A stretch of DNA of 64,000 nucleotides. Source: Gammaproteobacteria bacterium. Lineage in GTDB: Bacteria; Pseudomonadota; Gammaproteobacteria; JAABTG01. The stretch is from positions 109,289 through 173,288 of the forward strand of contig JAGNLM010000002.1 of the NCBI GenBank assembly GCA_017999615.1. The letters run 5' to 3'. This document shows positions 218 to 40,040 of the stretch, one piece after another (positions within the stretch are counted from its first letter, which is position 1; each line of letters opens with the position of its first letter). The notes below the pieces were generated by a model. It worked only from the letters and a program-made list of their open reading frames with translations. It had not been told where the DNA came from and searched no databases. A program made the translations under genes and the position numbers.

Positions 218-1278
218 CCCGAAAGGCGCAGGAGTGCCGCCCCGTCCAGCAACCCCTCCCGGCCCACGGGCGAGTCGGGCTCGAGACCCGCGCCGCTGCA
301 GCTCTCGCCCCCGGGCAGGACCACCTCGCGATTGGTGAGGCGCAGGACCGAGCCGTCCGAGAGCCGGAGATCGGTCTGGGAGCTGCACTTACCGAACGTC
401 CGCTCGCCCACGAGGCGGGCGGCTCCGTGATGGCGCAGCACCCCGGCGAAGACCTCGCCGGCGCTGGCCGTGCCGGGTCCGACCCAGAGCACGACGGACC
501 CACCCCGGACCTTGGTGCCCCCGGGCGCCGCGTACACCTGGCGCCGCCCCCCCCGGTCCCGGGTCTCGCCGAGGGGCGTGCCCTCGGGCAGGAACAGTCC
601 CGCGCTGTCGAGCGCCTCGAAGAGGTCCCCCCCGGGGCAGTCGCGCAGGTCCAGGACCAGGGGACCCCGCCCACCGGGCAGTCCCTGCACCGCCAGCGCG
701 AGCAGGGTCCGGGTCTCCCGGGTGACGAACCCGCGCACCCGGATGACGGGGTGACCGACCTCCTCCGCCGACTCCACCGAGAGGGCCCGGTAGGGCTCCC
801 GGGGCACCGTCAGCTCGCGCACCACCCCCCCTTCGCCCGCGGCCAGGGCGAGGCGCACGGTGCTCCCCGGGGCCCCCGCGAGCCGTCCCGCCGCCTCGCG
901 GAGCGAAAGCGCCGCTACCGGTTTGCCGTCGATGGACGCGAGAGCGACGGGCGCGGTCACCCCCTGCCGAGCGAGTGCCCCCTCACCGTAGGGCGCGAGC
1001 ACGAGGCGCTCACCCCACCGGGCGAGCGCCGCCCCGACCCCGACCCCGGCGTCATCCGCCTGCTCCCGGGCGTAGTCCGCTGCAGGGAACCAGCGCGCGT
1101 GGGGGTCGATGCGCCGCAGCCCCTCGGCGAGGCCGGAGGCCACCAGGCCCTCGAGGGCCGCCCCATCGGGGGCGTGGAGCCCGTGGCGCACGAAGGCCTG
1201 GCGGATCTCGTCGAGGGGAGGCCCGCCGGCGAGACCGACCGCGGGCGCCAGCAGCAAGGCCGCAGCCCAGGCGCGCAA
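169..1278 (-). CDS. Exported S41-family (C-terminal processing) serine protease
   Basis: The 369-residue product starts at TTG four bases after the upstream stop and begins with a signal peptide (about residues 1-17). A short N-terminal helical part and a PDZ-like segment (about 80-165) precede the S41 fold. The nucleophile motif TASAGE places Ser272; the general base is Lys297 in FGKCSS. Their 25-residue spacing equals that of the Tsp/Prc dyad, so the enzyme looks active in the periplasm. It is the last gene of the operon running from 14601. The natural C-terminus is lost: the last ~15 residues (KWGHSGFSTTSNAPP) and the TGA are read out of the repeat array. Whether it processes a partner from this operon is inference. 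Confidence 0.85.
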   Translation of the reverse strand: MRAWAAALLLAPAVGLAGGPPLDEIRQAFVRHGLHAPDGAALEGLVASGLAEGLRRIDPHARWFPAADYAREQADDAGVGVGAALARWGERLVLAPYGEGALARQGVTAPVALASIDGKPVAALSLREAAGRLAGAPGSTVRLALAAGEGGVVRELTVPREPYRALSVESAEEVGHPVIRVRGFVTRETRTLLALAVQGLPGGRGPLVLDLRDCPGGDLFEALDSAGLFLPEGTPLGETRDRGGRRQVYAAPGGTKVRGGSVVLWVGPGTASAGEVFAGVLRHHGAARLVGERTFGKCSSQTDLRLSDGSVLRLTNREVVLPGGESCSGAGLEPDSPVGREGLLDGAALLRLSGKWGHSGFSTTSNAPP

Positions 1279-1282
1279 GGCC

Positions 1283-1828
1283 TCAGCTGCCGAGCTTCAG
1301 GTACATGTCGGTGAGCAGCCGGTACTCCTCCTCCAGCTGCCGGCGCTGGGCCTCGAGCTGGGAGCGGCGAACGTCCTGCGGGCCGCTGCCGTCGCCCTCG
1401 AGCGCGTCGGCGCTGCTCGCCTTGGCCGCCTGCTTCACCTTGCCCTCCAGCTCCCGCGTTTGCCGCTGCAGTTCCGTGATCTGGGTCTGCTCCGCGGCGT
1501 CATCGGCCTTGAGCGTCTTGACCTTGTCGGAGAGCTTGCGGGTCTCGGTCTGCAGGCGGGAGATCTTCTGCTGCTCGGCCTTCAGGCGGCGTTCGGACTC
1601 GCCCTTGCGGGTCTCGAGTCCCGTCTTCTCGTTCTCGATGTCGGTCCGCGCCGCCTTCAGGCTCTCCAGGCTGTCCTGGCGGGTGCGCACGCGATCCTCG
1701 TACTTCCCGCTCGCGAGCCCCCCCAGGCCGCCGAGGAACCCGCCCTCCCGCGGGTTGTCGGTGGCACAGCCACCGCCCAGGGCGGCGACGAGCACCCCGG
1801 CGGCCGCCAGGCGGACCCGCCGGCTCAT
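1283..1828 (-). CDS. Coiled-coil outer-membrane lipoprotein
   Basis: This is a 181-residue lipoprotein. A signal peptide ends in the lipobox LGGGC (Cys about residue 21); the following Ala predicts Lol sorting to the outer membrane. After a Gly-rich spacer (GGFLGGLGGLASG) nearly the whole mature chain (about 45-175) is heptad-rich Lys/Glu/Gln coiled coil. Its ATG overlaps the TGA of the glycine-zipper lipoprotein upstream (ATGA), so the two are translationally coupled. I do not recognise a named family. Position and composition suggest a structural partner of the preceding lipoprotein and SUMF1 protein. Confidence 0.75.
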   Translation of the reverse strand: MSRRVRLAAAGVLVAALGGGCATDNPREGGFLGGLGGLASGKYEDRVRTRQDSLESLKAARTDIENEKTGLETRKGESERRLKAEQQKISRLQTETRKLSDKVKTLKADDAAEQTQITELQRQTRELEGKVKQAAKASSADALEGDGSGPQDVRRSQLEAQRRQLEEEYRLLTDMYLKLGS

Positions 1829-2496
1829 ACGGAGAGCCTTTCGTCGATGCGCGCGAGCTGGGCGGAGCCGCGGTGCAGGTTGTCGATGTTCGTCTGCAGC
1901 TCCTTCACCTGTTTCTCGAGGGACTTCACGTACGGGTCGTCCCCGCCGCGCTGTCCCCGCTCCTCCTTGGCGACGGCCACCTTGATCTCGTGCTCTTTGC
2001 GCAGCCCCTCTTCCAGGTCGCGGCTCTTCTGCATCTTGGCCTGAACGGTGTTGCGCTGGGCCAGCAGCTGGTCCCGGGTCGCCTGGCCCGAGCGGTAGCG
2101 CGTGGCGAGCTGCTTGGACTGGGTGTCGAGGCTGCTGATTTGTCCCCGCAGCTTCTCGTTGTAGGCGACCGCCTCCTGGTTGAGCGCCTCGGCCTGGGCG
2201 ATCTCCGCCTCCAGGAAGTCCTCCTCCCGGGCGTAGTTGGCCTTGCGCTTCGCGATCTCGTTGCCCGCGAGGTAGCCGACCCCGGCACCCAGCGCCGCGC
2301 CGATGAGCGCGCCCTTCTTGTCGCCCGCGGCGGCCCCGATGAGGCCGCCCACCAGCGCGCCGAGGAGCGAGCCCTGGACCCGCGTCGCCGTCTGGTCGTC
2401 ACCGGACGACGAATCCGGGCGCTCGGTCCCGTTCGTTGCCACGCAGCCGCTCAGCAGGGCGGCCACCAGGACTGCGGAAACACTCCGGCTGATCAT
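1825..2496 (-). CDS. tagQ: Glycine-zipper lipoprotein, TagQ-like by position
   Basis: The start is ATG at 2496, preceded by CAGGAGCG; the frame is open further upstream but has no lipobox there. The 223-residue product has lipobox LLSGC (Cys about residue 18). A glycine-zipper segment follows (GALVGGLIGAAAGDKKGAL, about 45-85), able to insert in or pack against a membrane, and then a long coiled coil (about 90-215). It follows the SUMF1-like gene exactly where TagQ follows TagR in the Pseudomonas H1 type VI locus; TagQ is an outer-membrane lipoprotein there. I see no sequence-level proof of TagQ homology, so the symbol rests on context and lipoprotein character. Confidence 0.65.
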   Translation of the reverse strand: MISRSVSAVLVAALLSGCVATNGTERPDSSSGDDQTATRVQGSLLGALVGGLIGAAAGDKKGALIGAALGAGVGYLAGNEIAKRKANYAREEDFLEAEIAQAEALNQEAVAYNEKLRGQISSLDTQSKQLATRYRSGQATRDQLLAQRNTVQAKMQKSRDLEEGLRKEHEIKVAVAKEERGQRGGDDPYVKSLEKQVKELQTNIDNLHRGSAQLARIDERLSV

Positions 2497-2587
2497 CGAT
2501 TCGCTCCTGTTGCTTGCTCGAGCCGCGCTGCGGCTGCACGCGCTCTCTCGGCCTTTGACCATCGTTCGGAACGGGGTTCCCGCCGCA

Positions 2588-4252
2588 TCAATCGGCGAAG
2601 CCCTGGAAGGCCTGCTCGAAGTCGGCCCGCCAGCGCTCGGGCTCGACCCGCCGCTGCGCGTTGAAATCGCGCACGTGCGCGGCCAGCAGCTCCGTCGTCT
2701 TCGCCTCCCTCGGCAGTAGCGGTTTGGCCTGAAGGGCCTTGAGGGCCGCCTCGTAGTAGGCCTCACCGTAACCGCCAAGGGCCGCGACCTTCTCCCCGTA
2801 GGCCTGGAACTGCTGGTCTGCGGACACCTTGAGCTCGCGCATGGTCTTCTGGATGGCGTCCACCTGCTCCTGGTAGCGGGTCGACATCTGGGCGAGCTTG
2901 CGGGCGCTCTCCAGGCCCTCGCCCATCTTCGCCAGGCGGGTCAGGTGCGCGCTCAGGTTCACCCCGTTGCGGGCCGCGTCCTGGGCGACGCTGCGTGCCC
3001 CCTCCCGCTGGGCCACCTCGAGCTGCTGGCGGGCATTGTCCACGTAGTGCTGGAGCTGGGCCAGGGGCTCGGCCAGCTGCGGGTTCTGGGCGGCAAGCCG
3101 CTGCAGGATCGGGTCGGCAGTGCCGAGCTGGCTCGCCGCCTGGGCGACGGCGTTGTCGAGCGTGCGGCCCACCGGCATGCTGGAGCGCACCGATTTCTTG
3201 TAGTCGGCGTACTCCTGCTCCAGGGACCGGCGGACCTCCGAGCTCACCACCACGTTGGACCCGATGGCAAGCCGGGTCCCGGTGTTGAAGCTGCGCCGCT
3301 CCTCCATCGCCTTCGTGTCCGGGTTCCACGCCCAGGCGTCGAGCTCCGCGCGGTTGGAGGAGCGCACGTCCCGGTCCGGGGTCGACACGCTCGCCCCGCG
3401 CACCGGCACGCCCCCGGGCTTGCCCTGCCAGATCTCGGGCAGGAACACCCCGCTCACCACCTCCTGCACGTTGCCGTACAGGTCGTGCAGGCCGAGGGCG
3501 TTCGGTTTGCGCAGGCCGACGGGACGGACCTTGTGCTTGGCATTGCCGAGCGTCCACGCGTGCTCGTTCAGCTCGCCCGGCGCGAACGGCAGGCGCTGGT
3601 CGAAGGTGCCGGCGGCAAGGGCCGGCTGCCCGCCCCGTGCGGCGTACTCCCACTCCGCCTCGGTGGGCAGGCGCACGAACCCCGGGACACCCGCCACCCG
3701 CGGGATCCCCGCCACGCGCTCCGGGTGAGCGGGGTCGAAGAGCCACTGGTTGTAGCGGTGCAGGAACTCCTGCAGGGCCCGGTGGCCGACGTAGGCGAGG
3801 GGCATCTTCAGGGCCTCCTCCCGCTCCTGGCCCTGGAGGGATGGCAACTGGCGGTCCGCGGGGTCGCCCGAGAGCTCCGCCAGACGGTCGAGCCCCATCA
3901 CCGCCGCGAACTGTCCCTTGGTGAGCTCGTACTTGCCGAGGTAGGCGAGCCAGCGCTCACCCCCCTCGGCCGGGAACGAGCCACTCACCTGGGTGCGCTG
4001 CAGCCCTTCGAAGGGTCCACCGCCCGCGTCGCCCACCTGCACCACGCGGGCCGGGTCGGCCCAGAAGCCCTTGCCCGGCACCGCTACGGCCCGGAACACG
4101 GCCTCCGCGCCCCCCGGCATGGGCAACACCTGATCGCCCTCGAGCGGCTTCGGGTTCCAGGGGGTCTCCGCCGGCGCCCCCGCCGGGGCGCCGAGCGCCG
4201 GTGCACAGAGAAGGGAAAGGGCCAGCCAGGCGGCCCGGTTTCTATTCTTCAC
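2588..4252 (-). CDS. tagR: Periplasmic SUMF1/FGE-fold protein, TagR-like
   Basis: The GTG at 4252 overlaps the permease stop by 11 bases and has GGAGG eight bases upstream. The 554-residue product has a signal peptide (about 1-23). A formylglycine-generating-enzyme/SUMF1-like domain follows (about 60-330), with LPTEAEWEYA at 195-204 and the late GLHDLYGNVQEVV motif; the C-terminal part is helical coiled coil (about 335-480). The mature chain contains no cysteine, so the copper/Cys chemistry of true FGE is impossible and the fold must serve as a binding module. TagR of the P. aeruginosa threonine-phosphorylation pathway is a periplasmic protein of this fold, and the neighbours here are TagS- and TagT-like. 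Confidence 0.8.
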   Translation of the reverse strand: MKNRNRAAWLALSLLCAPALGAPAGAPAETPWNPKPLEGDQVLPMPGGAEAVFRAVAVPGKGFWADPARVVQVGDAGGGPFEGLQRTQVSGSFPAEGGERWLAYLGKYELTKGQFAAVMGLDRLAELSGDPADRQLPSLQGQEREEALKMPLAYVGHRALQEFLHRYNQWLFDPAHPERVAGIPRVAGVPGFVRLPTEAEWEYAARGGQPALAAGTFDQRLPFAPGELNEHAWTLGNAKHKVRPVGLRKPNALGLHDLYGNVQEVVSGVFLPEIWQGKPGGVPVRGASVSTPDRDVRSSNRAELDAWAWNPDTKAMEERRSFNTGTRLAIGSNVVVSSEVRRSLEQEYADYKKSVRSSMPVGRTLDNAVAQAASQLGTADPILQRLAAQNPQLAEPLAQLQHYVDNARQQLEVAQREGARSVAQDAARNGVNLSAHLTRLAKMGEGLESARKLAQMSTRYQEQVDAIQKTMRELKVSADQQFQAYGEKVAALGGYGEAYYEAALKALQAKPLLPREAKTTELLAAHVRDFNAQRRVEPERWRADFEQAFQGFAD

Positions 4253-6068
4253 GAATGGCCTCCGCAGGGTCGATCCGGGTCGCCTCCCAGGCCGCGAGCA
4301 CGGAGCTCGCCGCGGCCACCGCCAGCACCGCAGCCGCGGCGCCGTACAGGGTCCCGGCGGGCAGCGAGCAGATCCGCTGACCGAGGTCCAGGTCCGCGGC
4401 GAAGGCGTGGTTGATGAGGCTTGCGAGCACCCCATAGGCGGCGAGCGCGAGGACGAGGCCCATGGCGGCGAGCGCGCTGCCCTGGTAGACGGGGAAGAAG
4501 AAGACGTCGGGGCGCGTCAGTCCCACGAGGCGCAGGATCGCCAGGTCGCGGCGCTTGCGCTGCACCGCGGCGTAGAGGCTCGCCACCAGGACGGCCGCCC
4601 CACCGGCCACCCCGAGGCTCGCCACCAGCCAGAAGAGGCGCGCGAGCCCGCGGTCCAGGACCTGGATCCGGCGGATGTCGTCAACCCGGGCGGAGACCTC
4701 CACCCCTTCCGACCCCAGCCGCCGCACCAGCTCGGGGACGTCGTCGATGGCCCGGGCGTACAGCCGGAACCCGCGGTAGCCGCCGCGGGCCGCCGTGAAG
4801 CCCTCGCCGTCGAATGCGATGGGCCGTTGCAGGCCGGTGCGCAGCACGCCGAGGAGCTCCGCAGGCAGGTAGGCCCGGCCGGTGGCCGGCCCGGTTCCGG
4901 CGACCCGCACCGGGAAGCGCAGCTCCGCGACCCCGTGTGCGGCGAGCTCGAGTCCCGCGCCCCCCCCACCGGCGCTCTCCGGGGGCAGCCAGGCCTGGCG
5001 CAGACGGGCCCCGTCGCCGGTCGCCTCCAGCCCCCCCCAGGGCGGCGCGGGGACCCCGAGGCGGCCCGCCTGCTCCGGCGTGAGCGAGAGCCCCACCGCC
5101 GGGGCCGGCAGCCCCTGGAGTCCGAGCTCGCGGGTCTCCACCTCCGGGAGCAGGATAGCCCCCAGCCCCCGGAGCTTGCGCCGCAGGGCCTCCAGGGTGG
5201 ACGCGCCGACCGCGCCCCCGGGGGCCGTGAGCCGGTACGCCTGCCACCCGGCGGGCAGGTCCCAGCCGAAACGCCCACGCACGGCCGCGGCGTCGAGGTC
5301 CTCCACGAACCCGAGGCCGGTGTTGACCACGAGGCCCGAGCGGGCGACGGGGTCGAGCGCCGCCTCCAGCAGCACCAGGACGCCGTCGTAGGTGGGTGCC
5401 GGGCGCGGCACCTCGCCGGCCCAGCCGCGGGCCGCAATCGCCTGTCCCTCCTTGTAGGCCTCCACGTCGAGCACGAAACCGAGCGGGGCATAGACGCGCG
5501 GGAGCGTCCCGCCGCGGGGGTCGAGCACAGCGGCCACCCGCAGCGACGCCGCTCCTTGCTCGGCCACGCCGCCGCGCGTGCGGGTCGCCCGGACCTCGAG
5601 CCCATCGCCGGCACCGGCCCCGAGCTGGGCCGCCGCGGCGGCGGTCAGCACGGCCTCGCCCTCCCCGGGGATGACCCCCCCGTTCTCCAGCAGGAGCGGG
5701 TCGCCGGGTGCCGTAGGGATCAGGTCCAGGGTCTGCAGCTTGCCCGTGCGCGGGTGCAGGACGCCGAGGATGGACGACGCCGGCAGGATGGTCGGCAACA
5801 GGAAGCCGACCCCCCGCTCCGTCCCCAGGCGCTCGAGCCACTGCGGTGCGTACTCGCGGGTCTGAGTCGGGCGGACCTCCCGGTACACCGGGTCCTGCAC
5901 CAGGCGGTCGCGCAGGGTGGCCACCGTGCCGTGCTTGAGGCCCTGGAGGATGAGCAGCGGGGCCACCACCGCCGCCACGGCGATCACCAGGCAGAGGGTC
6001 AGGATCCACTCGTGGCGCAGGTCCGCCATCGCGAGCCCCGGGACCAGCCGGACGACGCGCGTGCTCAT
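4242..6068 (-). CDS. tagS: FtsX/MacB-type ABC transporter permease, TagS-like
   Basis: ATG at 6068 overlaps the ATPase stop (ATGA). The 608-residue product has one membrane segment near the N-terminus (about 20-42), a large periplasmic domain (about 45-475), and three membrane segments at the C-terminus with the FtsX-like VASLYAAVQRKRRDLAILRLVG stretch. This is the topology of type VII ABC (MacB/LolCE/FtsX) proteins, which transmit cytoplasmic ATP hydrolysis to periplasmic partners and need not move a substrate across the inner membrane. It sits between its ATPase and the TagR-like protein, as TagS does. Confidence 0.85.
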   Translation of the reverse strand: MSTRVVRLVPGLAMADLRHEWILTLCLVIAVAAVVAPLLILQGLKHGTVATLRDRLVQDPVYREVRPTQTREYAPQWLERLGTERGVGFLLPTILPASSILGVLHPRTGKLQTLDLIPTAPGDPLLLENGGVIPGEGEAVLTAAAAAQLGAGAGDGLEVRATRTRGGVAEQGAASLRVAAVLDPRGGTLPRVYAPLGFVLDVEAYKEGQAIAARGWAGEVPRPAPTYDGVLVLLEAALDPVARSGLVVNTGLGFVEDLDAAAVRGRFGWDLPAGWQAYRLTAPGGAVGASTLEALRRKLRGLGAILLPEVETRELGLQGLPAPAVGLSLTPEQAGRLGVPAPPWGGLEATGDGARLRQAWLPPESAGGGGAGLELAAHGVAELRFPVRVAGTGPATGRAYLPAELLGVLRTGLQRPIAFDGEGFTAARGGYRGFRLYARAIDDVPELVRRLGSEGVEVSARVDDIRRIQVLDRGLARLFWLVASLGVAGGAAVLVASLYAAVQRKRRDLAILRLVGLTRPDVFFFPVYQGSALAAMGLVLALAAYGVLASLINHAFAADLDLGQRICSLPAGTLYGAAAAVLAVAAASSVLAAWEATRIDPAEAIREE

Positions 6069-6829
6069 GCGGGCCCGCACACCGATTCGACCAGGCTCGG
6101 GGAGATGGCACCCAGGGTGCACCGGTAGGTACGGTCGGCGACGTCCCGCACCAGGTCCAGGTCGTGGGTGACCATCACGATGGCAGTCCCGAGCACCTGG
6201 GCGACCGACCGGAAGTCCGCCACCACCGCGCGGGCCCGGGACTTGTCCACCGCCGCGGTGGGCTCGTCCGCCAGCACCAGGGCGGGGCGGTGCAGCAGGG
6301 CGCGGAGCACGGCGACCCGCTGCCGCTCGCCTCCGGAGAGCCGGTGGGGGTGCCGGTCGAGGAGCCGGCCGATCCCCATGCGCTCCGCCGCGCCGGCGAT
6401 CGCGGCATCCTCCCGGTAGCGGCCGTTCATCTTCAGGGGCAGGGCGAGATTGCCCCGCACCGTGAGGAAGGGCAGGAGACCGCCAGTCTGCAGCACGTAG
6501 CCGAGCCGCTCCCGGCGCAACCGGGCGAGGCGGCCCTCGCGCCCCTGCTGCCAGAGCGCCATCACGTCGGTGACCTCGTTCCCGAGGCGGACGCGGAAGC
6601 TCTCCGCGGCGCTCGGGCGCAGCACCAGAGCGAGCATGTCGAGCAGCGTGCTCTTGCCCGAGCCGCTGTCCCCGACCAGGGCGACGAACTCCCCCGGATG
6701 CACCTCGAACCGGGGAACGCGCAGCCGGAAGCCCGTCCCGCCGTGCTCGCGCTCGCGCGTGAGCCCCCTCATCTCGACCAGGGGAGAACGGGCCTGCGCG
6801 TCGGGCGTGGCGCGCACCTCAAGGCGCAT
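6065..6829 (-). CDS. tagT: ABC transporter ATPase, TagT-like
   Basis: I place the start at ATG 6829, 11 bases inside the end of the upstream gene; a longer frame upstream has no signal. The 254-residue protein has a complete ABC core: Walker A GDSGSGKST (Lys59), signature LSGGERQR, and Walker B LVLADEPT followed by VTHD. It is of the LolD/MacB type that partners FtsX-like permeases, and its ATGA overlap with the permease gene marks them as one complex at the inner membrane. Confidence 0.9.
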   Translation of the reverse strand: MRLEVRATPDAQARSPLVEMRGLTREREHGGTGFRLRVPRFEVHPGEFVALVGDSGSGKSTLLDMLALVLRPSAAESFRVRLGNEVTDVMALWQQGREGRLARLRRERLGYVLQTGGLLPFLTVRGNLALPLKMNGRYREDAAIAGAAERMGIGRLLDRHPHRLSGGERQRVAVLRALLHRPALVLADEPTAAVDKSRARAVVADFRSVAQVLGTAIVMVTHDLDLVRDVADRTYRCTLGAISPSLVESVCGPA

Positions 6830-9800
6830 GGGCGGCGGGCAGTCGCTGGGGTGGGTCAAGCAGGAGGCGGCGCATTCCGGCGAGGACGGCCGCCGCGTCT
6901 GCCGGGGCGTTCGCCATGGCGCTGAAGACCTCGAGCGCGCGCAGGCGCTCCTCCTCCGTCGGCGCCGGCTGGCCCGCCTGGCGCTGCGCCATCGCCTGGT
7001 ACTTCTCGTCGAGGGTCGCACCGGGAAGCGAGGCGAGAGTCGCCGACATCTGGGACTCCAGCGTGCGGGACATCTCCTGCATCTGCGTGCGGACACCGTC
7101 CCGGGCACCGGGCTCGGGACCTGGAACCGCAACGACCACCGTGGTCATTCCCACGCTCACCAGTTCGCGGGTCTCGCCGTCGTAGAGCAGCACGCGCACG
7201 AGCCCGCTGTCGCGCGCCTCGTACCGGCGCGTCACCCGGGGCACCTCGGTACGCTGCACCTGCTCCGTGTCGCTGAACTCCCAGACGAACACCGGCCGCT
7301 TCGGCATCCTCAGGGGCGGAAGGCCGGCCTGAATGGCGACCTCGTCCCCTGCCAGGGTGAATACCACTATGGGCATGCGCAGCGCGAGGGGCGCCGCACC
7401 GATGGTGAGCGTGTAGTCGCCCCCCTTGGCGTCGTCTGCATTGGCGACCAGCACGTAGATGCCGTCCTTCGGACGCACCGTGACGGTCACGATGCGATTC
7501 TGGTCGCTGAACGTCGCCACCGGAGCAAGGGCGCTGTCCGCGCGGCGATCACCGGACAGGACGTGCACGCTGGCGCGTTTGTATCCGTCAAGCGGACCTT
7601 CAAGGCGCAGCGGCACGGACCGGGTCTTCCCGGCGGGGACCTGGACCTGCAGACCCCAGGCCTTGGCACGGTGCCCCGCCTTGAGGCTCATCGTCAGTTT
7701 CCCGGTCTCAGACTCGGACTCGCGCAGGAGCGCCCAGGCCGTCATCGCCTCCGCCGGCACCGAGCCGTTGTCGTTCGCTGGCATACCGCTGTCCGGGTGG
7801 AACAGCGTGTGCGCCACGAACTCGTGGAAGTGCGGGTTCAGCCCCTTGCGGTGGGCGCCCTGAAGGTACTCGGACAGGGGATAGAGCACGTCGTGGAGGT
7901 TCCACCAATCGGCGTTCGCCACGGACTCCCACATCGCCTTGAGCTGCTTGCCCGGGTCGCCGGAACGGCCCAAGAGGAAGTCGACGAAGTGCGCGGCCTG
8001 GTAGGCGTGCTCGTCGGCCGTCGCGGTGATGTCGGCGCTGAAGAACTTCGGTTTCACGGTGCGGCTCGGACGGGACTCCTTCCAGACCACGACGTCGCTG
8101 GCGTAGTCCGCCGTGGCGTCGCACCACCAGTCCGCGAACGTCATTCCTCCGATGTCCCAGTAGTACTCGTTCTGCACCGCGTGGAAGAGCTCGTGGGCGG
8201 CCACGCGGCGCAACAGACTGTGCCCCGTGCTGCTCGCCCCCACGTGGATCAGCCCCGAGGCCTTGTCACGGAAGTCCTGCTCACCAAGCGTATTCTCCAC
8301 CAGCACCTGGATGGGCGGCGCGGGCATCTTGAAGCCCGACTCCCGGTAGCGGGCATAGGCATGGTTCAGGTAGGCGCCGAGGTCGCGCAGGAACACCGGC
8401 AGCTTGGGGTCCGAGAGGTAGCTGGGCAGACCGCTGGGAAAGAGCCTGGCGAGGTTTCCGTCGCCCGTATAGATGACCTTGCTTGCCCAGGCCTCCGCCG
8501 TGTTCTCCTTCGGTGGCGTGAATAGCTCACGGTCGTACGCCACCTCGAAATCGCCCAGCGTGATGACACCGTAGCCGAGCGTCTTCATGAACCAACCGAA
8601 TGCGGTGAGGTGCCGGGTCTGAACGGTCACCACGCGCCGGGCGGCGTCGACGTGCGCCGGGAGAACGACCCACTGCCCGTAGTCCTCGTTCCACCAGGCC
8701 ACCTGCAGCGCGCTCGCGCCCGGGACCCCGGCCGGGATCGCAAGGTCCGCGTAGCTCAGCTCCAGGGTCACCGGCTGGCGAAATCGGCTCTGGCCGGTCA
8801 CCGCGACGTCGAGTGCCGCGACGGGCTTCAGCGCACCGTAGGGTGCCGGGGGCGGGTCGGCAACCCGCGAAATCACGATCTCCGCGGGCTTGCTCAGGCT
8901 ACCGGCAGGGAACTGGACGGCGAGGTTGCCGTGGCGGGCGGTCGCCGGCCCTGCCGTCGTGTCGAGCGCCTGACGTGCGAGGGGCTCCAGGCGAAGGGGT
9001 GCGCGGGCCTTCGGAGGCGCATCGTCCGGCGGCGCGCCGTCGACCACTGCAGGCCCGACCGCGACGGGTTGAGGCGCCGGCACCGCCGGCTCGGCGGCTG
9101 GCGGCGGCTGGACGGGTGGCGCGGGTGTCGCGGGTGTCGCGGCTGTCGCGGCTGTCGCGGCTGTCGCGGCTGGCGTGCGGGCGGCCGGGGCCCCGCCGGG
9201 TTGCCCGGCCGCGGGACCGGTGGCGCAGCGGGGCCGCTGCTCGGCCGAGGGCGCCAGCACGAAGACCATGTCCTGGTAGCGATCAGAAACGTAGAGCTGA
9301 CCGCTCGCGTCGACGGTCAGGTCGGTGACGTGCCGAAGGCGCGCCGGACCGCCCGCCCCGTCCTCGCCGCCGAACAGCAGCGGGCCGACCTGGACGAGGA
9401 AGCGCCCGGACGGGTCGTATTTGCGCACCACGCCGTCGTTGTCGCCCACGTAGAGATTGCCGTCCCCGTCGGCGGTGATCGATTCCGGGGTGAAGCCGTC
9501 CACGGTCTTCTCGGACAGGGGCACGGCCGTCACACCCACGACGGACCAGTCGCCCAGCGGCCCGCCGTCGGGGCCGTGCCGATGCACGCGCCCCTTGTCC
9601 CGGTCGATCCAGCTGATGAACCCGCGGGGGTCCACCGCGACCCGCCCCGGGATCGCCGGCCACGCCGCGAGGCGGCTGCCCTCGGGCGAGACACGCCTCA
9701 GGCCCTTGCGGTCGACGACGTACAGCGACCCGTCGGGAGCGAGATGGAGCTTGTCCGCGTCGAACAGCTCGTTCAGCTCGCCCGGGGGCCGGCCGTCGCC

Positions 9801-11204
9801 CCACACGCCGAGGAACTGCCCCTGCGGCGAGTAGTGCTTCACCCGTTTCTCGTCGAACACCCAGACGCTGCCGTCCCGCCCCACCGCAAGGTCCTGGGGC
9901 ATCGACAGGTGCTGCAGCTCGCGGCCGCGCTCGCCCCACTTGCGCACAAACCGCCCCTCGGCGTCGAAGACCTGCACCCGATGGGCGTGGGCATCGAGGA
10001 CGAAGAGATTTCCAGAAGAGTCGACACCGATGCCCTCGGCGTACTTGAGCTGCCCGTCTCCCTCGCCCGGCCCGCCCACCCGGCGGACCAGGCGATAGGG
10101 TGGCTCGCCGGCGCGCGCACCCTCCAGGATCTTGCGCACGACGGGCTCCCCTTCGCGCCCGGTGCTCCCGGCGCCGCCGGCGACGACCACGAGGTAAGTG
10201 CCGTCCGCGCGCGGCTCCTGGAACATGTGGAACATCAACCAGTAGGGCTCGCCGCCCTGGCTCGTGGTCAGCTCGTAACGGTTCGCCGCCTTGCCGCCGA
10301 TCGTCACGGCCGTCGGTCCCCGCAGCTCGGCCTTCAGGTCCTTGCCGATCTGTTTCACCATCTCGGGCTCCGGGACCGGTGCGACCGACAGCCCCAGAGT
10401 CACGGCGTTCTTCGCCTTGATGTCCCCGAGAAAGTACCCGGCGACCACCTGGCGGTCCGACTCGGGGATCGGCAGCCAGCCCGCCGGGAGGTCGACCTGG
10501 AGGTCCCCCAGGTAGCCCGTGCGGGGAGCGTCGGGCCCGGGCGCGGCCGGGGCGTCCAGTGCCGCGAGGGCGGCGGCGCACTCGGGGCTCGCCTCCCGGG
10601 CAGCGGGCGCCGCCGGAGCGGGTGCACGCCCAGCCGCCAGCGGCGGCGTTGGAGCCCCGGGCAGCCCGGGCGGCACCACCAGGGTGGCATTCCCGCCGAT
10701 TTCCAGGGACCGCCCGCCCGCGTCCACCAGGCGCGCGGAGGCACCGGGGGCCGTGCGCAGCAGCATGCCGGGGGTGACCGCCGCCCCGCTGTCGAGGGGT
10801 GCCCACTCCAGGTACTCGTGCTGGCGGAGCAGCTCGGCGAGCCGTCCCAGGGCCGGCGCCGTGGCGTCCCCGGCCTTGCGGGCCTCCTGCGCCCGCGCGG
10901 CCAACGCGTTGGCGTCGGCCCCGAGCAGGTCGACGCCCTTCGCCCGTTGGGCCATCAGGGCGTCCGTCAGGTCCCGGGGCAGTCGGCCCCAGCCCATCAG
11001 GGCCCGCACCGTCACCTTGCCCTCGCCCGCCAGGCCCAGCAGGCCCTGCGGGCCGGTGGCCCGCTCGACCCGTCCCTGCGTCGATTCCACGCGATAGGAC
11101 TCTTCGGCCCCCGCACCGGGTGCCCCCAGAAGCCAGGCGGCGGCGAAGGCTGCGGCCACCCGCAGCAGGGCGGAACGACGGGAACGGCGGTTTGGTTCGG
11201 TCAT
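6819..11204 (-). CDS. Giant exported FecR/NHL-propeller/HExxH metalloprotease-like protein
   Basis: The 1,461-residue product has a signal peptide with a twin-Arg-like n-region (SRRSALLRV). Domains in order: a FecR-like segment (about 140-190), a PsbP/DUF1795-like domain (about 225-365), NHL repeats forming a propeller (about 375-665), an Ala/Thr/Pro linker coded by 9-bp repeats, a beta domain with ZU5/GPI-like FPAGSLSKP features (about 740-860), and a zinc-peptidase-like domain with HELFH at 1004-1008. C-terminal beta domains follow. The downstream WWCDATADYASD aligns with the WxxEATAxW pattern of MXAN_6640-type peptidases but has Asp where the third ligand Glu is expected. It lies between the vWA gene and the ABC ATPase and overlaps the latter, so it belongs to the same operon. 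Confidence 0.75.
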   Translation of the reverse strand: MTEPNRRSRRSALLRVAAAFAAAWLLGAPGAGAEESYRVESTQGRVERATGPQGLLGLAGEGKVTVRALMGWGRLPRDLTDALMAQRAKGVDLLGADANALAARAQEARKAGDATAPALGRLAELLRQHEYLEWAPLDSGAAVTPGMLLRTAPGASARLVDAGGRSLEIGGNATLVVPPGLPGAPTPPLAAGRAPAPAAPAAREASPECAAALAALDAPAAPGPDAPRTGYLGDLQVDLPAGWLPIPESDRQVVAGYFLGDIKAKNAVTLGLSVAPVPEPEMVKQIGKDLKAELRGPTAVTIGGKAANRYELTTSQGGEPYWLMFHMFQEPRADGTYLVVVAGGAGSTGREGEPVVRKILEGARAGEPPYRLVRRVGGPGEGDGQLKYAEGIGVDSSGNLFVLDAHAHRVQVFDAEGRFVRKWGERGRELQHLSMPQDLAVGRDGSVWVFDEKRVKHYSPQGQFLGVWGDGRPPGELNELFDADKLHLAPDGSLYVVDRKGLRRVSPEGSRLAAWPAIPGRVAVDPRGFISWIDRDKGRVHRHGPDGGPLGDWSVVGVTAVPLSEKTVDGFTPESITADGDGNLYVGDNDGVVRKYDPSGRFLVQVGPLLFGGEDGAGGPARLRHVTDLTVDASGQLYVSDRYQDMVFVLAPSAEQRPRCATGPAAGQPGGAPAARTPAATAATAATAATPATPAPPVQPPPAAEPAVPAPQPVAVGPAVVDGAPPDDAPPKARAPLRLEPLARQALDTTAGPATARHGNLAVQFPAGSLSKPAEIVISRVADPPPAPYGALKPVAALDVAVTGQSRFRQPVTLELSYADLAIPAGVPGASALQVAWWNEDYGQWVVLPAHVDAARRVVTVQTRHLTAFGWFMKTLGYGVITLGDFEVAYDRELFTPPKENTAEAWASKVIYTGDGNLARLFPSGLPSYLSDPKLPVFLRDLGAYLNHAYARYRESGFKMPAPPIQVLVENTLGEQDFRDKASGLIHVGASSTGHSLLRRVAAHELFHAVQNEYYWDIGGMTFADWWCDATADYASDVVVWKESRPSRTVKPKFFSADITATADEHAYQAAHFVDFLLGRSGDPGKQLKAMWESVANADWWNLHDVLYPLSEYLQGAHRKGLNPHFHEFVAHTLFHPDSGMPANDNGSVPAEAMTAWALLRESESETGKLTMSLKAGHRAKAWGLQVQVPAGKTRSVPLRLEGPLDGYKRASVHVLSGDRRADSALAPVATFSDQNRIVTVTVRPKDGIYVLVANADDAKGGDYTLTIGAAPLALRMPIVVFTLAGDEVAIQAGLPPLRMPKRPVFVWEFSDTEQVQRTEVPRVTRRYEARDSGLVRVLLYDGETRELVSVGMTTVVVAVPGPEPGARDGVRTQMQEMSRTLESQMSATLASLPGATLDEKYQAMAQRQAGQPAPTEEERLRALEVFSAMANAPADAAAVLAGMRRLLLDPPQRLPAAHAP
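9123..9175. repeat. 9-bp tandem repeats coding an Ala/Thr linker
   Basis: About six copies of a 9-base unit (GGGTGTCGC / GGCTGTCGC on the plus strand) sit inside the giant metalloprotease gene. They encode the repeated AAT linker between the NHL propeller and the next beta domain. Because the unit is a multiple of three, copy changes would alter linker length without breaking the frame. Confidence 0.8.
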
Positions 11205-11278
11205 GGTGGCCCCGTGGCGGGTGCTGCCGCCGACGCGGCTCCCCGGGTCAGGGAACCGCGCCGGCGGTCACGAGTGAC

Positions 11279-13495
11279 TCAGGGCATGTAGTCGAGGTGC
11301 AGGGGGTAGACCTTCTCGCTCTCCGGGTCGCCCTCGGCGAGCCGCACCCAGGCGTCCACCTGCTCGTTGATGGTGCGGTACTGCTGCAGCTTGCCGAGCA
11401 GGTTCCACTCGAGCGCCGAGCGCTGCTCCGCGGTCATGCTGGCGTAGCGCTCGTCGTCCAGCGAGAGGACGTCGCTCTTGTAGGGCAGGCTCTGGATGAA
11501 CGCCGGCAGCAGCCCGGACTCGACCAGCTTCGCCGAGCGGCCGATGTCCTCGGGGCGCTTCAACGTCTGGCCCGAGACCGCCTGCAGGGCGTCGAAGAAC
11601 TGCATCTGCGTCACCTCGGCCCGCATGAAGGCCTGGACCACGTGGTCGAGGGCCTGCACCAGGCTGCTCAGCTGCTGGCGGGTGACCAGGACGCGCACCT
11701 CGAGCGAGCGGTCCGCGGGGTTCACCAGGTCGCGGTCGAGCGCCCAGGCGATGACGTCCTTCGGCGGCTCGGCGGCCTTGCCCACGTATTCCACGAGCGC
11801 CGCCTCCCAGAGCTGCTCGGTCCGGGCGCCGGACTCGCCGGCAGCTCCCTGGGCCGCCCCGGAGGCCTGGGCTGCGGGGGCCCCGGCGGCTGCGGCCGCT
11901 GCGGCGGGCTGCGTGAGGAGCTCCTCACCGGGCTTCGCCGCCACCGCCCGCGCGAGCCGGTCCAGCAGCGTCCCCGTGACGCTCTCGACCGCCTTCTGGA
12001 AGTCCTCCTGACGGAAGGCGTCCACCGGGACCAGCGCGGACTCGGTGCCGCCGCGGATCCGCGACAGGTGGGCGAACTGCTGCTCGGCCACCCCGTGGTC
12101 CTCGGCCGCGCGCTCGTCGCGCAGGTGGATGGCGAGCAGGTGCACCTGGGCGTCGTCGGCCTCCAGGCGCAGGTCCTTCTCGTCCTTGGAGGTGGTGTTC
12201 TGCGGGTGCCCCTTCGGGTGCGAGCTCGCGTCGCCCACCAGCACGACGAAGCGCAGCGCCCCCGGCTCCCAGGCCGAGCGCAGCGCCTGATCGACGCCGG
12301 CAAACATCTCCTCGGCGTAGTCGAGGCTGCCGACCGTGGTCGCCTTCACCTCGTTGTCCAGGAGCTTCACGAGCGCCGCGGCGTCGACCAGGGAGGGGGT
12401 GAAGTTGCGGGCGGTGTACTCGATGTTGGGCACCTTGGCCTGGGCGTCCCGGTAACCCACGAGCCCGAAGCGGACCCGGCCCTTGATCTCGGGGTTGTCG
12501 AGCCGCTTGACCATCGCCGAGACCGCCGAGCGGGTGGAGTCGATGTAGGGCTGGGTGCTGCGCGTAGTGTCCATCACGAACACCACGTCGAGCTTCAGGT
12601 CCTGCAGGGCGACGCCCTGCGCGGCGTCGCGGGCCGTGCCCGCCTGCTCCACGTACTCCGCGTTCTTCAGCGTGTCGGCGCCGCGCGCGCCCGGCACCGC
12701 TGCCGCCAACTGCAGGTAGCGTGCGTCGTCACCGTCGAGGGTCACGCTGTCGAAGCGCACGATCGGCAGGATGTAGAAGTTCCGCGTGATGTCGACGAAG
12801 CGCCGGGGCTCCACGCTGACCAGGTCCTCTGGCGCGTCCTTCGCCGCGACCTTCTGGTAGAGCGCGTCCGCCTGGGCGGCGCGGTCGCCGGCACCCACCA
12901 CCCGTTTCAAGGACGGCAGGTCGCGGAACATCAGCACGGGCTTGCGGCCGTCCTGCACCCCGCCCGGGTGCGTGTAGGAGACGAGCAGCGCCTGGCGCCA
13001 CTCGAGGACGTCGGCGGCCCGCATCCAGCCCTGGGGCCCGGTGCTCGAGGCACCCACCTGGTACCAGCCCTTCGGGTTGGCAGGGTCACTCACGTCCACC
13101 CCCTCGCGGGCGTACACGTAGAGCGGATGGAAGGCCTTCACGTTGGCCTGGGCGATACCGGCGGGGTTCTCCGCGCGCTCCTTGTAGAGGTTCGACAGGG
13201 GACGCGGCAGCACGCGCAGGGGGAGCTGGGTCCCCGCCTCGATGCAGGGACCCTTGCCCTCGCAGCGCACCGCCGGCTCGTCGGTCGCCGGCCCACCTTC
13301 GAGGGCATCGGCACCGGAGGCGGCGGCCTTCCCGGCCAGTGCGGCTCCCGCCGGACCCACTGCACCCGGAGGGGCCCCGGCGGCGGCAGGCGCCCCAGTG
13401 CCTTCGAGGGCGTCGGCAGCGCCGGCGGCCCAGGCGGCGGGGCAGGTCCCGGCAAGGGCCAGGGTGAGCGCGAGAGCGGTATTCAGGTGGCGCAT
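11279..13495 (-). CDS. Secreted vWA-domain protein resembling the periplasmic part of PpkA
   Basis: ATG 13495 is preceded by GAGGGGAATTGCC. The 738-residue product has a signal peptide (MRHLNTALALTLALAG...AWA) and an Ala/Gly-rich spacer. An SH3-like region follows (about 100-175) with LRVLPRPLSNLY, GWYQVGASS and GWMRAADVLEWRQ. The vWA domain (about 300-490) carries a MIDAS-type motif beginning Asp309 (VMDTTRSTQPYI). A helical C-terminal half (about 540-738) completes it. From memory, PpkA of the P. aeruginosa H1 type VI system has a periplasmic vWA region of similar layout after its kinase and membrane segment. Here there is no kinase or membrane segment. The vWA domain could bind the TagR-like protein or the giant propeller protein. 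The PpkA relation needs alignment. Confidence 0.75.
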   Translation of the reverse strand: MRHLNTALALTLALAGTCPAAWAAGAADALEGTGAPAAAGAPPGAVGPAGAALAGKAAASGADALEGGPATDEPAVRCEGKGPCIEAGTQLPLRVLPRPLSNLYKERAENPAGIAQANVKAFHPLYVYAREGVDVSDPANPKGWYQVGASSTGPQGWMRAADVLEWRQALLVSYTHPGGVQDGRKPVLMFRDLPSLKRVVGAGDRAAQADALYQKVAAKDAPEDLVSVEPRRFVDITRNFYILPIVRFDSVTLDGDDARYLQLAAAVPGARGADTLKNAEYVEQAGTARDAAQGVALQDLKLDVVFVMDTTRSTQPYIDSTRSAVSAMVKRLDNPEIKGRVRFGLVGYRDAQAKVPNIEYTARNFTPSLVDAAALVKLLDNEVKATTVGSLDYAEEMFAGVDQALRSAWEPGALRFVVLVGDASSHPKGHPQNTTSKDEKDLRLEADDAQVHLLAIHLRDERAAEDHGVAEQQFAHLSRIRGGTESALVPVDAFRQEDFQKAVESVTGTLLDRLARAVAAKPGEELLTQPAAAAAAAGAPAAQASGAAQGAAGESGARTEQLWEAALVEYVGKAAEPPKDVIAWALDRDLVNPADRSLEVRVLVTRQQLSSLVQALDHVVQAFMRAEVTQMQFFDALQAVSGQTLKRPEDIGRSAKLVESGLLPAFIQSLPYKSDVLSLDDERYASMTAEQRSALEWNLLGKLQQYRTINEQVDAWVRLAEGDPESEKVYPLHLDYMP

Positions 13496-13530
13496 GGCAA
13501 TTCCCCTCGGGATGGTACGGCAGGCACCGG

Positions 13531-14601
13531 TCACGGCGCGGGGGGCACGTCGATGCCCCGGGTCTTGAGATAGGCCTCGAGCTTCTTCACGCGGGCGGCG
13601 ACCTGGGGGTCGGGGTGCAGGGCCTGGCTCTGACGGTAGGCCTGCAGGGCACCCGGATAGTCACCCGCGCCTTGCAGCCCTTCCCCGTCACGCTGCAGGC
13701 GGGTGGCCTGCTCCCGACTGGCGCCATCCCCGGGGGCGGGGGCAGCGGAGCCGGCCGTGGCCGCGGCAGCCGTCGTTGCGGCCGGGGCCGCTGCGGCGGG
13801 CGCAGTGGCGGCAGGCACGGCCTCGGGCGTCGGGGCCACCGCGGCCTCGGCCGCCGGCGGCGCCTCCCCTCGCGCCCCCTCGAGCTCCTTCAGGTCCGCC
13901 TCCGCCACCCGACTCCGGAAGTCATCCTGGCCCTTCATCGCGTCCAGGAAGCGTTTGTACCAGACCTTCGCGTCCGCCGTGCGGCCCACGTTCTTCAGGG
14001 CCTGGGCGTACGAGAAGCCATACTCCTCCAGGACCTCCGGGGCGACCTCCGGTCCGGCGAAGAGCTCGCCATACAACTCCACGGCCTTCGGCCAGTCCTT
14101 CATCTCCTCGTAGATGAAGACCAGCCGGCGCTTGATCAAGGGCACCCCCTCGGAATCGGGGTAGCGCGCCAGGAAACGCTCGAGCAGTGCCCGCGCCTCC
14201 GGGTACTTCGGCGCATCGTAGGCCTGCAGGTAGAGATTGGACATCCTCCAGTAGGACTCCTGGGCCTGCTCGGTCTCCGGACACTTCTCCATGACCTCGA
14301 GGTAGAGCCGCTCGATGGTGGTCAGGTCGTAGGTGTCGGCCTGGCGGATCTGCTCGAAGAGCGACTTCGCCAGCGCGTTCGGGTCCTGGGGCGCCGGCGC
14401 CTCGCCTGCGGCCTGTGCCGCGCCTCCGGGCACCGGTGCGGGGGCCGTCGCGGGCGCAGCCACCGGGCCGGCCGCGGCGGGCGGGACCGCCGCCGGGTCC
14501 GCCGGCGCGGCGGGCTCGGCCAGGGGCTCCACCCCGAGCGCTGGCCCCACGGCAAGCAAGCCGAGGAGCGTCAAGGTGAACCGGTTGCAGACTTCTTTCA
14601 T
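13531..14601 (-). CDS. Secreted TPR protein, first gene of operon A
   Basis: ATG 14601 has GGGAG seven bases upstream. The 356-residue product has a signal peptide (about 1-23), a Pro/Ala-rich linker (about 24-80), TPR-like helices (about 85-235; ESYWRMSNLYLQA, RRLVFIYEEMKDWPKAVELY, EEYGFSYAQALKNVGR), and a second Ala/Pro linker. It ends in a C-terminal module (about 310-356) containing GDYPGALQAYRQS and VAARVKKLEAYLKT. That last module closely matches the end of the 2,020-residue protein at 21508-27570, tying the two operons together. A periplasmic scaffold role is likely; the partner is unknown. Confidence 0.75.
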   Translation of the reverse strand: MKEVCNRFTLTLLGLLAVGPALGVEPLAEPAAPADPAAVPPAAAGPVAAPATAPAPVPGGAAQAAGEAPAPQDPNALAKSLFEQIRQADTYDLTTIERLYLEVMEKCPETEQAQESYWRMSNLYLQAYDAPKYPEARALLERFLARYPDSEGVPLIKRRLVFIYEEMKDWPKAVELYGELFAGPEVAPEVLEEYGFSYAQALKNVGRTADAKVWYKRFLDAMKGQDDFRSRVAEADLKELEGARGEAPPAAEAAVAPTPEAVPAATAPAAAAPAATTAAAATAGSAAPAPGDGASREQATRLQRDGEGLQGAGDYPGALQAYRQSQALHPDPQVAARVKKLEAYLKTRGIDVPPAP

Positions 14602-14846: not shown

Positions 14847-17435
14847 ATGACGGAGTGGTGGCGCAGGGTGCTGCTCGCTGCGGCGGTCGCGACCGGGGCC
14901 TGGCTCTGGTTCCTCGCGGACCTGGCACCGCTGGTGAGGCTGGAGGCGGTGGACTTCGCGAAACGCCAGGAGCGTCACGGGGGGACGGCCGGGGCGCTGG
15001 TGGAGGAATCCCGCCGCATGCGGGCCCTGACGCCGGAGTCCTTCGTCCAGGAGCTCACCCGGAACCGGACCCTCGAGGTGACGGGACCGGCCTGGAGTGC
15101 CTTCTTCCCCACCGTGCTGGACGCCTCGGCCCGGGGGACCGTGCCCCCCGAGTGGCGGGACCGGGCGCTGGAGCACGAACGCGGGCGCGGTCACGGGCCG
15201 GTGAGTCTCTTCTTCCGCCTGGACGAGTCCCCCCTGGACGAGCTCTCGGGGCGCACGAAGCCCTCCGAGGAGAGGTTCCTCACCCTCGCGGGCGAGGCAC
15301 CGCCGCGCTTCCTCGCCGCCTGGCCCCGCTCCCTGTCCGACGACGACTTCCAGCTCGGCCGTGGCCTGAGCGGTTACGACGCGCCCGCCGAGATGGTGTT
15401 CCGGCTCCGCCCCTGGGTGCCCTGGGTGCTGGCCGCCGGCCTCGCCCTCTACGTCCTCCTGCCCTGGCCCCGGCGCCCGCCCGGCGCCATCGTCTTCTCC
15501 CGTTGGCGGGTCGTGCTGGGCGACCTGGTGGGCATCCTCCTGTTCGGGATGTTCTTCTCCCTGCCGTTCTTCATCGTCGGCGGGTCCGTCCAGGCGCTGC
15601 GCGATACCTGGGGCTTCCCCCTGGTGCTCTGGCCCCTGGCGGCGCTCGGGCTGCTCGCCCTCTGGTTCGGGGCCCGCTACTCGGCCTACGCCATCGAGGT
15701 CCTCCCGGGCGGACTCCGGGTGTCCGGCATCGGCCCGGCCCTGGAACTCCCGTTCACCGAGGTCCGGTCCTTCCGGCCGGCGACCCTGCGCGCGCCCCGC
15801 TGGCTCGTACGCGCCCTGTGGGTGGCGGCGCTCTTCGGCAAGGGCCGCGGGGCCGGCCAGGCCCTGATCCTGGGCAGCTCCGAGACCGGCGGACTCGCCC
15901 TGGAACTGCGCGACGGCCGCCGGGTTTTCCTGTGGGCCACCGATGCGATGGGCAACCTGGCGATGCGCGGGTTCGAGCGCGTGATCGAAGGGCTGCGGGC
16001 TGCGGGCGTGCGCGAGCTCGACGAGCCCATCGAGCGACGGGCCATGCTCCCGCCGGATGTCGAGGGGCCGGGGGTGCGCGGCACCCCGGCGTTCGGGCTG
16101 ACGCTCATGGTCCTGGCGCCGGGACTCCTCGCCGCCGCCATCGGGGCCTGGCTCTCCCGCACCGAGCCGGCACCGGCCGTCCCCGTCGGGCAGGGCGCGG
16201 CGAGCGGTGAACGCGAGGCCGCCCCCGGGGCGGCGACCCCGGCCGGGGCACCGGGGGATGCAGGTCTCCTCCACCGCACCCCCACTCCCGCCCTCCCCGG
16301 CCGAGCCCTCGGGCCCGGCGACATCGCCTGGGAGGTCGTGCGCGAGGTCCCCGACGCCGCCGTCACGCGGGGCACGGCCCTCCTGACCCGCCCCGGCGGC
16401 GGGGTCCTGGTCGCGGGGGAGGTCGGGTTCCTGGACCTGAACGCGACCGACGTCTACGCCCTGGCCCTCGGCCCCGCCGGCGAGACCGCGTGGGAGACAC
16501 GCCGGGAGCAGCCCTGGGAGGACGCCTGCGCGGCGGTGGCGGCACTGCCCGGAGGCGGATACCTGCTGGCGGGGGACGCCAAGGTGGACGACCGGCTCGC
16601 CAGCGACCTGGACCTGGTCGCCCTCGAGGAAGGGGGCACCGAGCGCTGGCGCCGGCGCCGGGGACAGGAAGGGCGCTACGAGCGAGCCGCCGGGTTGGCG
16701 GCGGCAGACGACGGTTACCTAGTGGTCGGCTCGACCGAGCGCGGGGTCGACGTCGCCCTCTCGCCGGCCGGCGAGCTGGTGCCCCGTGTCCGGGCGCCCG
16801 CGGGGGCCGCGTATCTCGTGAAGCTGGACGGCGAAGGCCGCCCGCTGCGCGAGGAGTCGCTGCCCGGGGCCGGGACTGCGGGACTCCAGGCCATCGCGGC
16901 CACCGGCGAGGGCGGGTTCGTCGCCGCCGGCTGGACCGAGCGTCGCGACGAGGACTTCATCGACGCCTACCTGGTCGGCCTGGACCGGGAGGGCCGGGTG
17001 ACCTGGGAGCGGTCCTTCGGAGGGCCGGGGACCCAGAAGGCCGCGGCCCTGACCGTACTGGCGAACGGCGACCTCGCCCTCACCGGCCGGGCGTCCGTCT
17101 CCGGGCGGCGCGCCCCGGCGCTGTGGCTCACGCGCACCGATGCCCGGGGGGAACCCCGCTGGACGCGGACCTGGGACACCGGGGAGCTCGAGGGCGTCGC
17201 CGTGATGGCGGACGCGGGCGACGGCCTGCGGGTGGTGGGGCGGGGACGGGCCCAGGGCGGCAGGGACTTCCTGTACCTGTTGCGCACGGACGGGGCAGGC
17301 CAGGTGCGCGAAGAGGCCCACTACGCCCCGGGCGACGCCGGCCTGACCCCCTACGCCGCCCTCGCGCTGCCCGACGGCGGGCTCCTCGTCACCGGGCAGC
17401 GGGGCACCGCTCTCTTCGCCCTGAAGATGCGGTGA
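14847..17435 (+). CDS. Membrane protein with PH-like domain and C-terminal beta-propeller
   Basis: This 862-residue protein has no family I can name. An N-terminal membrane segment (about 8-28) precedes a soluble part (about 30-185). Three hydrophobic segments lie between about 190 and 280. A bacterial PH-like domain follows (about 280-400; AIEVLPGGLRVSG, LPFTEVRSFRP, LELRDGRRVFLWATD), then another membrane segment (about 410-430). The rest (about 460-862) is a series of beta-propeller-like blades with the recurring pattern GGGxLVAGxxxxxDxYxLxLxxxG. Topology suggests a cytoplasmic PH-like face and a periplasmic propeller, so it could carry a signal across the inner membrane. It diverges from operon A and converges on operon B. 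Confidence 0.7.
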   Translation: MTEWWRRVLLAAAVATGAWLWFLADLAPLVRLEAVDFAKRQERHGGTAGALVEESRRMRALTPESFVQELTRNRTLEVTGPAWSAFFPTVLDASARGTVPPEWRDRALEHERGRGHGPVSLFFRLDESPLDELSGRTKPSEERFLTLAGEAPPRFLAAWPRSLSDDDFQLGRGLSGYDAPAEMVFRLRPWVPWVLAAGLALYVLLPWPRRPPGAIVFSRWRVVLGDLVGILLFGMFFSLPFFIVGGSVQALRDTWGFPLVLWPLAALGLLALWFGARYSAYAIEVLPGGLRVSGIGPALELPFTEVRSFRPATLRAPRWLVRALWVAALFGKGRGAGQALILGSSETGGLALELRDGRRVFLWATDAMGNLAMRGFERVIEGLRAAGVRELDEPIERRAMLPPDVEGPGVRGTPAFGLTLMVLAPGLLAAAIGAWLSRTEPAPAVPVGQGAASGEREAAPGAATPAGAPGDAGLLHRTPTPALPGRALGPGDIAWEVVREVPDAAVTRGTALLTRPGGGVLVAGEVGFLDLNATDVYALALGPAGETAWETRREQPWEDACAAVAALPGGGYLLAGDAKVDDRLASDLDLVALEEGGTERWRRRRGQEGRYERAAGLAAADDGYLVVGSTERGVDVALSPAGELVPRVRAPAGAAYLVKLDGEGRPLREESLPGAGTAGLQAIAATGEGGFVAAGWTERRDEDFIDAYLVGLDREGRVTWERSFGGPGTQKAAALTVLANGDLALTGRASVSGRRAPALWLTRTDARGEPRWTRTWDTGELEGVAVMADAGDGLRVVGRGRAQGGRDFLYLLRTDGAGQVREEAHYAPGDAGLTPYAALALPDGGLLVTGQRGTALFALKMR

Positions 17436-30386: not shown

Positions 30387-30389
30387 GGC

Positions 30390-30695: not shown

Positions 30696-30762
30696 CTCGG
30701 ACCTCCCCTGACAGGTTGTGGAAAGACCTGCACCGACAGGATTGATTGATATTAGGTGCATC

Positions 30763-39977: not shown

Positions 39978-40040
39978 CGAAGTTCCCCTCGTCATCTCCG
40001 TCACTCCTGTCCCCCGGCCCCCACCGCCGCCCCCGGAGCC

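Follow-up and report, generated by a model that had tools for sequence, protein, structure and literature searches.

A kinase-free relative of the PpkA-TagTSRQ envelope module, accompanied by an S41 peptidase and TVRAL-domain proteins

In the type VI secretion system (T6SS), a role of TagQRST in sensing envelope damage has been published (PMC6657622). The 64,000-nucleotide stretch of gammaproteobacterial DNA analyzed here (the window) carries an operon that resembles the envelope half of this pathway. The first-pass annotation proposed that the locus had dropped the kinase and membrane segment of PpkA and may signal without phosphorylation. Did this locus lose a kinase, or does it belong to a kinase-free family with a function of its own?

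Gene content of the operon and its surroundings

The vWA, ABC, FtsX, SUMF1 and lipoprotein genes are all on the minus strand, in this order, with short gaps or overlaps. The run starts with a secreted TPR protein (13531-14601, minus strand, TPR families), which shares 35% identity (E 2.5e-27) with a 1670-aa protein of genome G933 that is TVRAL-tagged. It is followed by a secreted SH3-like/vWA protein of 739 aa (11279-13495, minus strand, PF00092 E 3.9e-7), a homologue of the periplasmic half of PpkA. Its predicted structure shows a vWA fold, with matches just to general vWA/integrin structures, no kinase was matched using Pfam, and a transmembrane partner gene is absent from the operon. The next gene codes for a secreted 1461-aa NHL protein (6819-11204, minus strand, NHL E 3.8e-14, TVRAL E 7e-29) with an N-terminal TVRAL domain (residues ~46-134), an NHL beta-propeller and a metallopeptidase-like region (HELFH at residue 1004), the latter matching an MXAN_6640-like model below its curated cut-off. 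The TagT-like ABC ATPase (6065-6829, minus strand, PF00005 E 2.5e-27) has intact Walker A (GDSGSGKS), signature (LSGGER) and Walker B (LVLADE) motifs. The adjoining TagS-like FtsX permease (4242-6068, minus strand, PF02687 E 1.4e-9) has a periplasmic insertion of ~190 residues, evident from alignment, and its predicted structure (mean pLDDT 83) best matches LolC/LolE, with further matches to LolCDE, MacB and FtsEX. A TagR-like SUMF1-fold protein with a helical C-terminal extension (2588-4252, minus strand, PF03781 E 5.9e-19) has a sole cysteine, at residue 15 inside the signal peptide, and the FGE active-site cysteines are absent.

Two lipoproteins and a peptidase complete the operon. The first is a TagQ-like glycine-zipper lipoprotein with the lipobox LSGC (1825-2496, minus strand, PF13488 E 1.3e-9). 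The second, LP2 (1283-1828, minus strand), is a coiled-coil protein 34-41% identical to the same-position gene in related loci, with a non-canonical lipobox (LGGGC) where its relatives have LAGC or LGGC. The S41 peptidase is of the C-terminal-processing type (169-1278, minus strand, PF03572 E 4.8e-30). It has the Ser/Lys dyad of these enzymes, the Ser (TASAGE) and Lys (RTFGK) being kept across the window's subfamily, and it scores below the cut-offs of the named Ctp families. A 90-bp tandem repeat of 2.4 exact copies (window 1-218 region; L026:5290-5506) abuts the S41 gene at its 3' end, overlaps it there and encodes its final residues. TssR-vWA, GldK/GldJ and LolCE identities were considered for window proteins and dropped, all matches being sub-threshold. 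No RNA family and no tRNA was found within the window.

Coordinates and Pfam matches thus agree with the first-pass annotation on the five genes, their strand and their order, on a SUMF1-fold protein free of cysteines outside its signal peptide and on the added TPR and protease genes. Two points need amendment. The vWA and ABC genes are not adjacent, as the NHL gene intervenes. The proposed unit (1825-14601) is real but too short, since the S41 and LP2 genes lie outside it and yet belong to it. The two proteases proposed are the S41 peptidase and the NHL protein with its HELFH motif and sub-threshold match.

The divergent neighbor of the operon encodes an 862-aa protein with an N-terminal hydrophobic segment (14847-17435, plus strand, no Pfam match), whose membership is uncertain. 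It was compared with a 439-aa neighbor gene in genome G911 as a possible counterpart, which was rejected as the similarity was insignificant. Two large genes of the wider cluster come next. One is a 1347-aa frame of uncertain start (17487-20600, minus strand, open frame reaching 21530), 32% identical over 560 aligned columns (E 2e-53) to a gene that follows the operon in G930. The other encodes a secreted 2020-aa repeat protein (21508-27570, minus strand; CarboxypepD_reg, Big_7, PPC and CARDB in Pfam) with a TPR-like C-terminal end, 53% identical over 1973 columns to a gene that follows the operon in G911. A sodium:solute symporter gene and a CBS-DUF294 gene are neighbors of the cluster in the window (28839-33210) and again in G911 (L187:3-4532), which reflects either co-transfer or coincidence.

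The host genome (2.47 Mb, 99% complete) contains no VipB/TssC, no SrfB and no kinase-bearing PpkA relative, and the 56 relatives include seven more vWA carriers in which VipB/TssC was likewise not found. The window proteins scanned include no Tss, VgrG, PppA or Fha. The absence of T6SS genes nearby, as first annotated, therefore holds for the proteins scanned and extends to VipB in the whole genome; the description of the vWA protein as lacking the PpkA kinase and membrane segment was also correct. The sole other vWA relative in this genome is on contig C16 (L017), in a second, kinase-less module of the SEL-vWA-ABC-FtsX trio class.

Relationship to PpkA-TagTSRQ and direction of the kinase change

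We used a profile of the vWA relatives against 119 genomes from the genus of a Pseudomonas carrier, and 49 genomes matched, with open frames nearly all of ~665-720 aa or ~970-1290 aa. Six long-frame loci (L156-L161) were examined with their surroundings. In all six proteins a kinase precedes the SH3-like/vWA region; ABC, FtsX and SUMF1 genes come after them, and in four loci a glycine-zipper lipoprotein comes next after SUMF1. The order and the domains of PpkA-TagT-TagS-TagR-TagQ have been established in P. aeruginosa, and we regard the six loci as this set. Another route to PpkA, via TagF loci, was set aside, as the kinases it yielded had neither vWA nor Tag genes in their vicinity. The window vWA protein aligned with the C-terminal region of PpkA over ~620 aa (28% identity, E about 1e-64), the ABC ATPase with TagT (43-47%, E 1e-40 to 1e-52) and the SUMF1 protein with TagR over ~530 aa (25-28%, E 2e-24 to 2e-29). 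The FtsX permease aligned with TagS at 36-38% identity (E about 1e-22) in ~210-residue blocks, as its insertion breaks the alignment. These four resemblances, already suspected in the first-pass annotation, are therefore upheld. For the lipoprotein, the position fits TagQ but the sequence match to the TagQ-position gene of Pseudomonas is weak (E 7e-5 to 8e-4). Overall, we regard the homology to PpkA/Tag and the existence of a kinase-free subfamily as nearly certain. Compared with the H1-type T6SS locus of Pseudomonas, gene order is shared, but the window vWA protein lacks the kinase/transmembrane half and the T6SS is absent. In addition, the window has the FtsX insertion, the second lipoprotein, S41, the TVRAL proteins and an NHL gene between vWA and ABC.

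The missing kinase is not unusual. Across 80 loci of the genome collection, the vWA protein was mostly ~650 aa, no kinase fused to it was detected, and most loci continued with ABC, FtsX, SUMF1 and lipoprotein genes. Such kinase-less loci are common and mostly found beside SrfABC: SrfB was present in the genome of 26 of the 39 carriers surveyed, VipB was absent in 18 of 31 tested, and in Gilliamella the locus is directly preceded by SrfB and a Virul_Fac (SrfC-type) gene. Indeed, TagQRST-like cores lacking kinase and T6SS had been described before. Campbell et al. (2013, PMC3608642) described srfABC together with tagQRST and genes resembling ppkA in host-associated Deltaproteobacteria, in most cases with no T6SS, and T6SS control genes adjoin srfABC in Xenorhabdus (Sun et al., 2019, PMC6950479). 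These Srf-associated operons share with the window the kinase-less series from vWA to two lipoproteins, often without T6SS, but they have SrfB and lack S41 and TVRAL, and their vWA gene is often preceded by one for a SEL-like transmembrane protein. The trios (G003, G004, G013, G019, G032 and contig C16 of the host) have homologous vWA, ABC and FtsX genes, and their carriers also lack VipB and SrfB. Unlike the window operon, they have a SEL-like transmembrane protein and lack SUMF1, lipoproteins, S41 and TVRAL.

Two side observations concern the SEL-like proteins. In Srf-type loci, they have a long N-terminal part of no assigned family where PpkA has its kinase (L049:8888-9910; SEL-matching genes in L032-L106). 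A gene of Lamprocystis purpurea (L137:12738-14390) encodes a kinase whose C-terminal fusion partner is SEL-like, with vWA missing; it shares its contig with a TagF gene, and this fusion is a possible intermediate toward the PpkA architecture.

We then placed 57 vWA proteins in a tree. The window's subfamily, the trios and the kinase-fused PpkA each fell on one side of a branch with an SH-aLRT support of 100, while the Srf-associated forms, which lie outside the window's clade, needed at most two changes. Kinase-fused PpkA formed a single clade and every other branch was kinase-less, so that one gain by fusion is simpler than several losses. Hence, the view that the window locus dropped its kinase was not borne out and probably has the direction wrong, judging from an unrooted tree in which PpkA was sampled from one genus and has a long branch.

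A subfamily marked by S41 and the TVRAL domain

The window belongs to a subfamily with the unit vWA-ABC-FtsX-SUMF1-lipoprotein-lipoprotein-S41, in which FtsX has ~610 aa, the ~190-residue insertion being absent from other forms. More than ten further genomes share this gene order, at identities of 32-60%, which is more than chance. A SUMF1 relative 55-60% identical to that of the window was carried by 15 of 150 sampled genomes of one order, presumably Desulfovibrionales as read from the name of a Desulfomicrobiaceae MAG. The ten loci of this order that we examined have the full gene set, with vWA, FtsX and SUMF1 51-60% identical to the window. A gammaproteobacterial MAG (L029) has the set at ~50% identity, S41 being absent from its usual position, and L190 (from the window's phylum) and L191 are two members that diverge further. 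In L029, two vWA genes lie in tandem ahead of ABC-FtsX (L029:7138-11965). The genes of the subfamily are intact and spread over two phyla. As this distribution is patchy, horizontal transfer between Desulfovibrionales and the window's genus is likely; in the vWA tree, the window is not nested inside Desulfovibrionales.

Among 13 other subfamily loci, 12 encode S41, and it was seen in none of those scanned outside the subfamily. No SEL/transmembrane partner and no kinase was found in the subfamily operons. SrfB was found in none of 19 subfamily genomes, using the model that did detect it in other carriers, and VipB was found in five of them, always on another contig than the operon.

The second mark is a domain of ~90 residues with the consensus LTVRALRAWGxLP, for which Pfam gave no match. 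Named TVRAL here, it recurs from the N-terminus of the NHL protein in several large proteins of the cluster. It was detected in all 17 core genomes of the subfamily and in none of 36 others (20 from the order sampled above that lack the operon, six genomes near the window that carry trio or Srf-type loci, six more with Srf-type loci and four divergent subfamily members). As read from coordinates, only two copies on long contigs are more than 33 kb away from the operon. The domain sits at a protein end, either after the signal peptide or C-terminally, and in three genomes (G911, G921, G933) it is fused to the C-terminus of S41. The window S41 itself has no TVRAL, which counts against the mechanism proposed below. 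The domain was not detectable in the divergent carriers G377, G535, G1027 and G1048; as these four have the operon, it is not essential to the ancestral function. We give even odds that TVRAL proteins are clients of this machine, and S41 is somewhat less credibly their processing enzyme. Together, S41 as a constant component of the unit and the recurring TVRAL domain, both overlooked in the first-pass annotation, set the subfamily apart. Our limited search of the open-access literature found neither the S41-containing subfamily nor its TVRAL companions, and the subfamily appears to be new.

A possible machine for tagged surface proteins

From the observed genes, we propose an ABC-powered, phosphorylation-free envelope machine that would act with S41 on TVRAL-tagged clients, a mechanism to which we assign a probability of roughly 45%. 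By gene content, the TagT-like ATPase is paired with the TagS/LolC-like permease and its large periplasmic part, and ATP would drive movement of the FtsX periplasmic domain by analogy with LolCDE, MacB and FtsEX, which share an ABC ATPase and, as modeled, the permease fold with the window but differ in their partners. The moving FtsX may gate a complex of the vWA, SUMF1 and lipoprotein components, which in turn could recruit large secreted proteins via their terminal TVRAL domain. S41 would then trim these proteins or control their quality during export or surface assembly. Since the ATPase is the only cytoplasmic component, no phosphorelay would be needed, from which we infer signaling without phosphorylation. 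The absence of S41 from its usual place in L029 counts against this mechanism, as do the four divergent carriers in which TVRAL was not detectable and the homologous T6SS module, which senses damage rather than handling clients. A tentative extension is that TVRAL serves as a dockerin-like address tag and that the vWA-ABC-FtsX-SUMF1-lipoprotein-S41 set is a distinct kinase-free machine recruiting and processing tagged surface proteins, with TagQRST-PpkA of the T6SS as a derived relative that acquired its kinase by fusion.

The main rival is an envelope-damage sensor. Here the lipoproteins and SUMF1 would sense outer-membrane disturbance and relay it via vWA and FtsX/ABC, with periplasmic S41 proteolysis, not phosphorylation, as the output. 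Homology and gene order shared with TagQRST speak for such a sensor, and S41 is a neighboring effector-like enzyme, but it leaves the TVRAL-tagged large secreted proteins of all 17 core carriers unexplained, and we consider it possible though rather unlikely. A Lol-like machine, in which ABC/FtsX would release or insert the two operon lipoproteins with the other proteins as their partners, is improbable. The FtsX model does match LolC/LolE best and two lipoproteins are at hand, but the permease scores only 29.5 bits against an NCBIfam LolCE cut-off of 362.45, its insertion is large, there is one permease gene instead of two, and vWA, SUMF1 and S41 would have no explanation.

It is very unlikely that a separate kinase works with the vWA complex. 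The candidate in the window is a Ser/Thr kinase with a cNMP-binding domain (38670-40004), and the Lamprocystis fusion shows that the parts can be separate, but this gene is outside the operon, ~24 kb from its first gene, and no kinase gene was found beside the subfamily operons examined. The kinase gene adjoins one for a DUF1631-PilZ-GGDEF-EAL protein, the pair spanning 38670-43778. Finally, although PpkA/TagTSRQ homology and the present lack of a T6SS would fit a remnant left after loss of a T6SS and deletion of the kinase from PpkA, such decay is hardly credible given a conserved clade of intact genes in two phyla, the single kinase-fused clade, and VipB that is absent from 14 of 19 subfamily genomes and never on the operon's contig in the other five.

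To our knowledge, it is not understood how envelope damage leads, via TagQRST, to T6SS firing. The conserved kinase-free relative described here shows the envelope half to be capable of working by itself, and its subfamily offers a system for studying the ABC/FtsX/vWA/SUMF1 core without phosphorylation or a secretion machine. If TVRAL is an address tag, it would provide a novel means of sorting large secreted proteins, and the candidate clients can be read directly from its presence.
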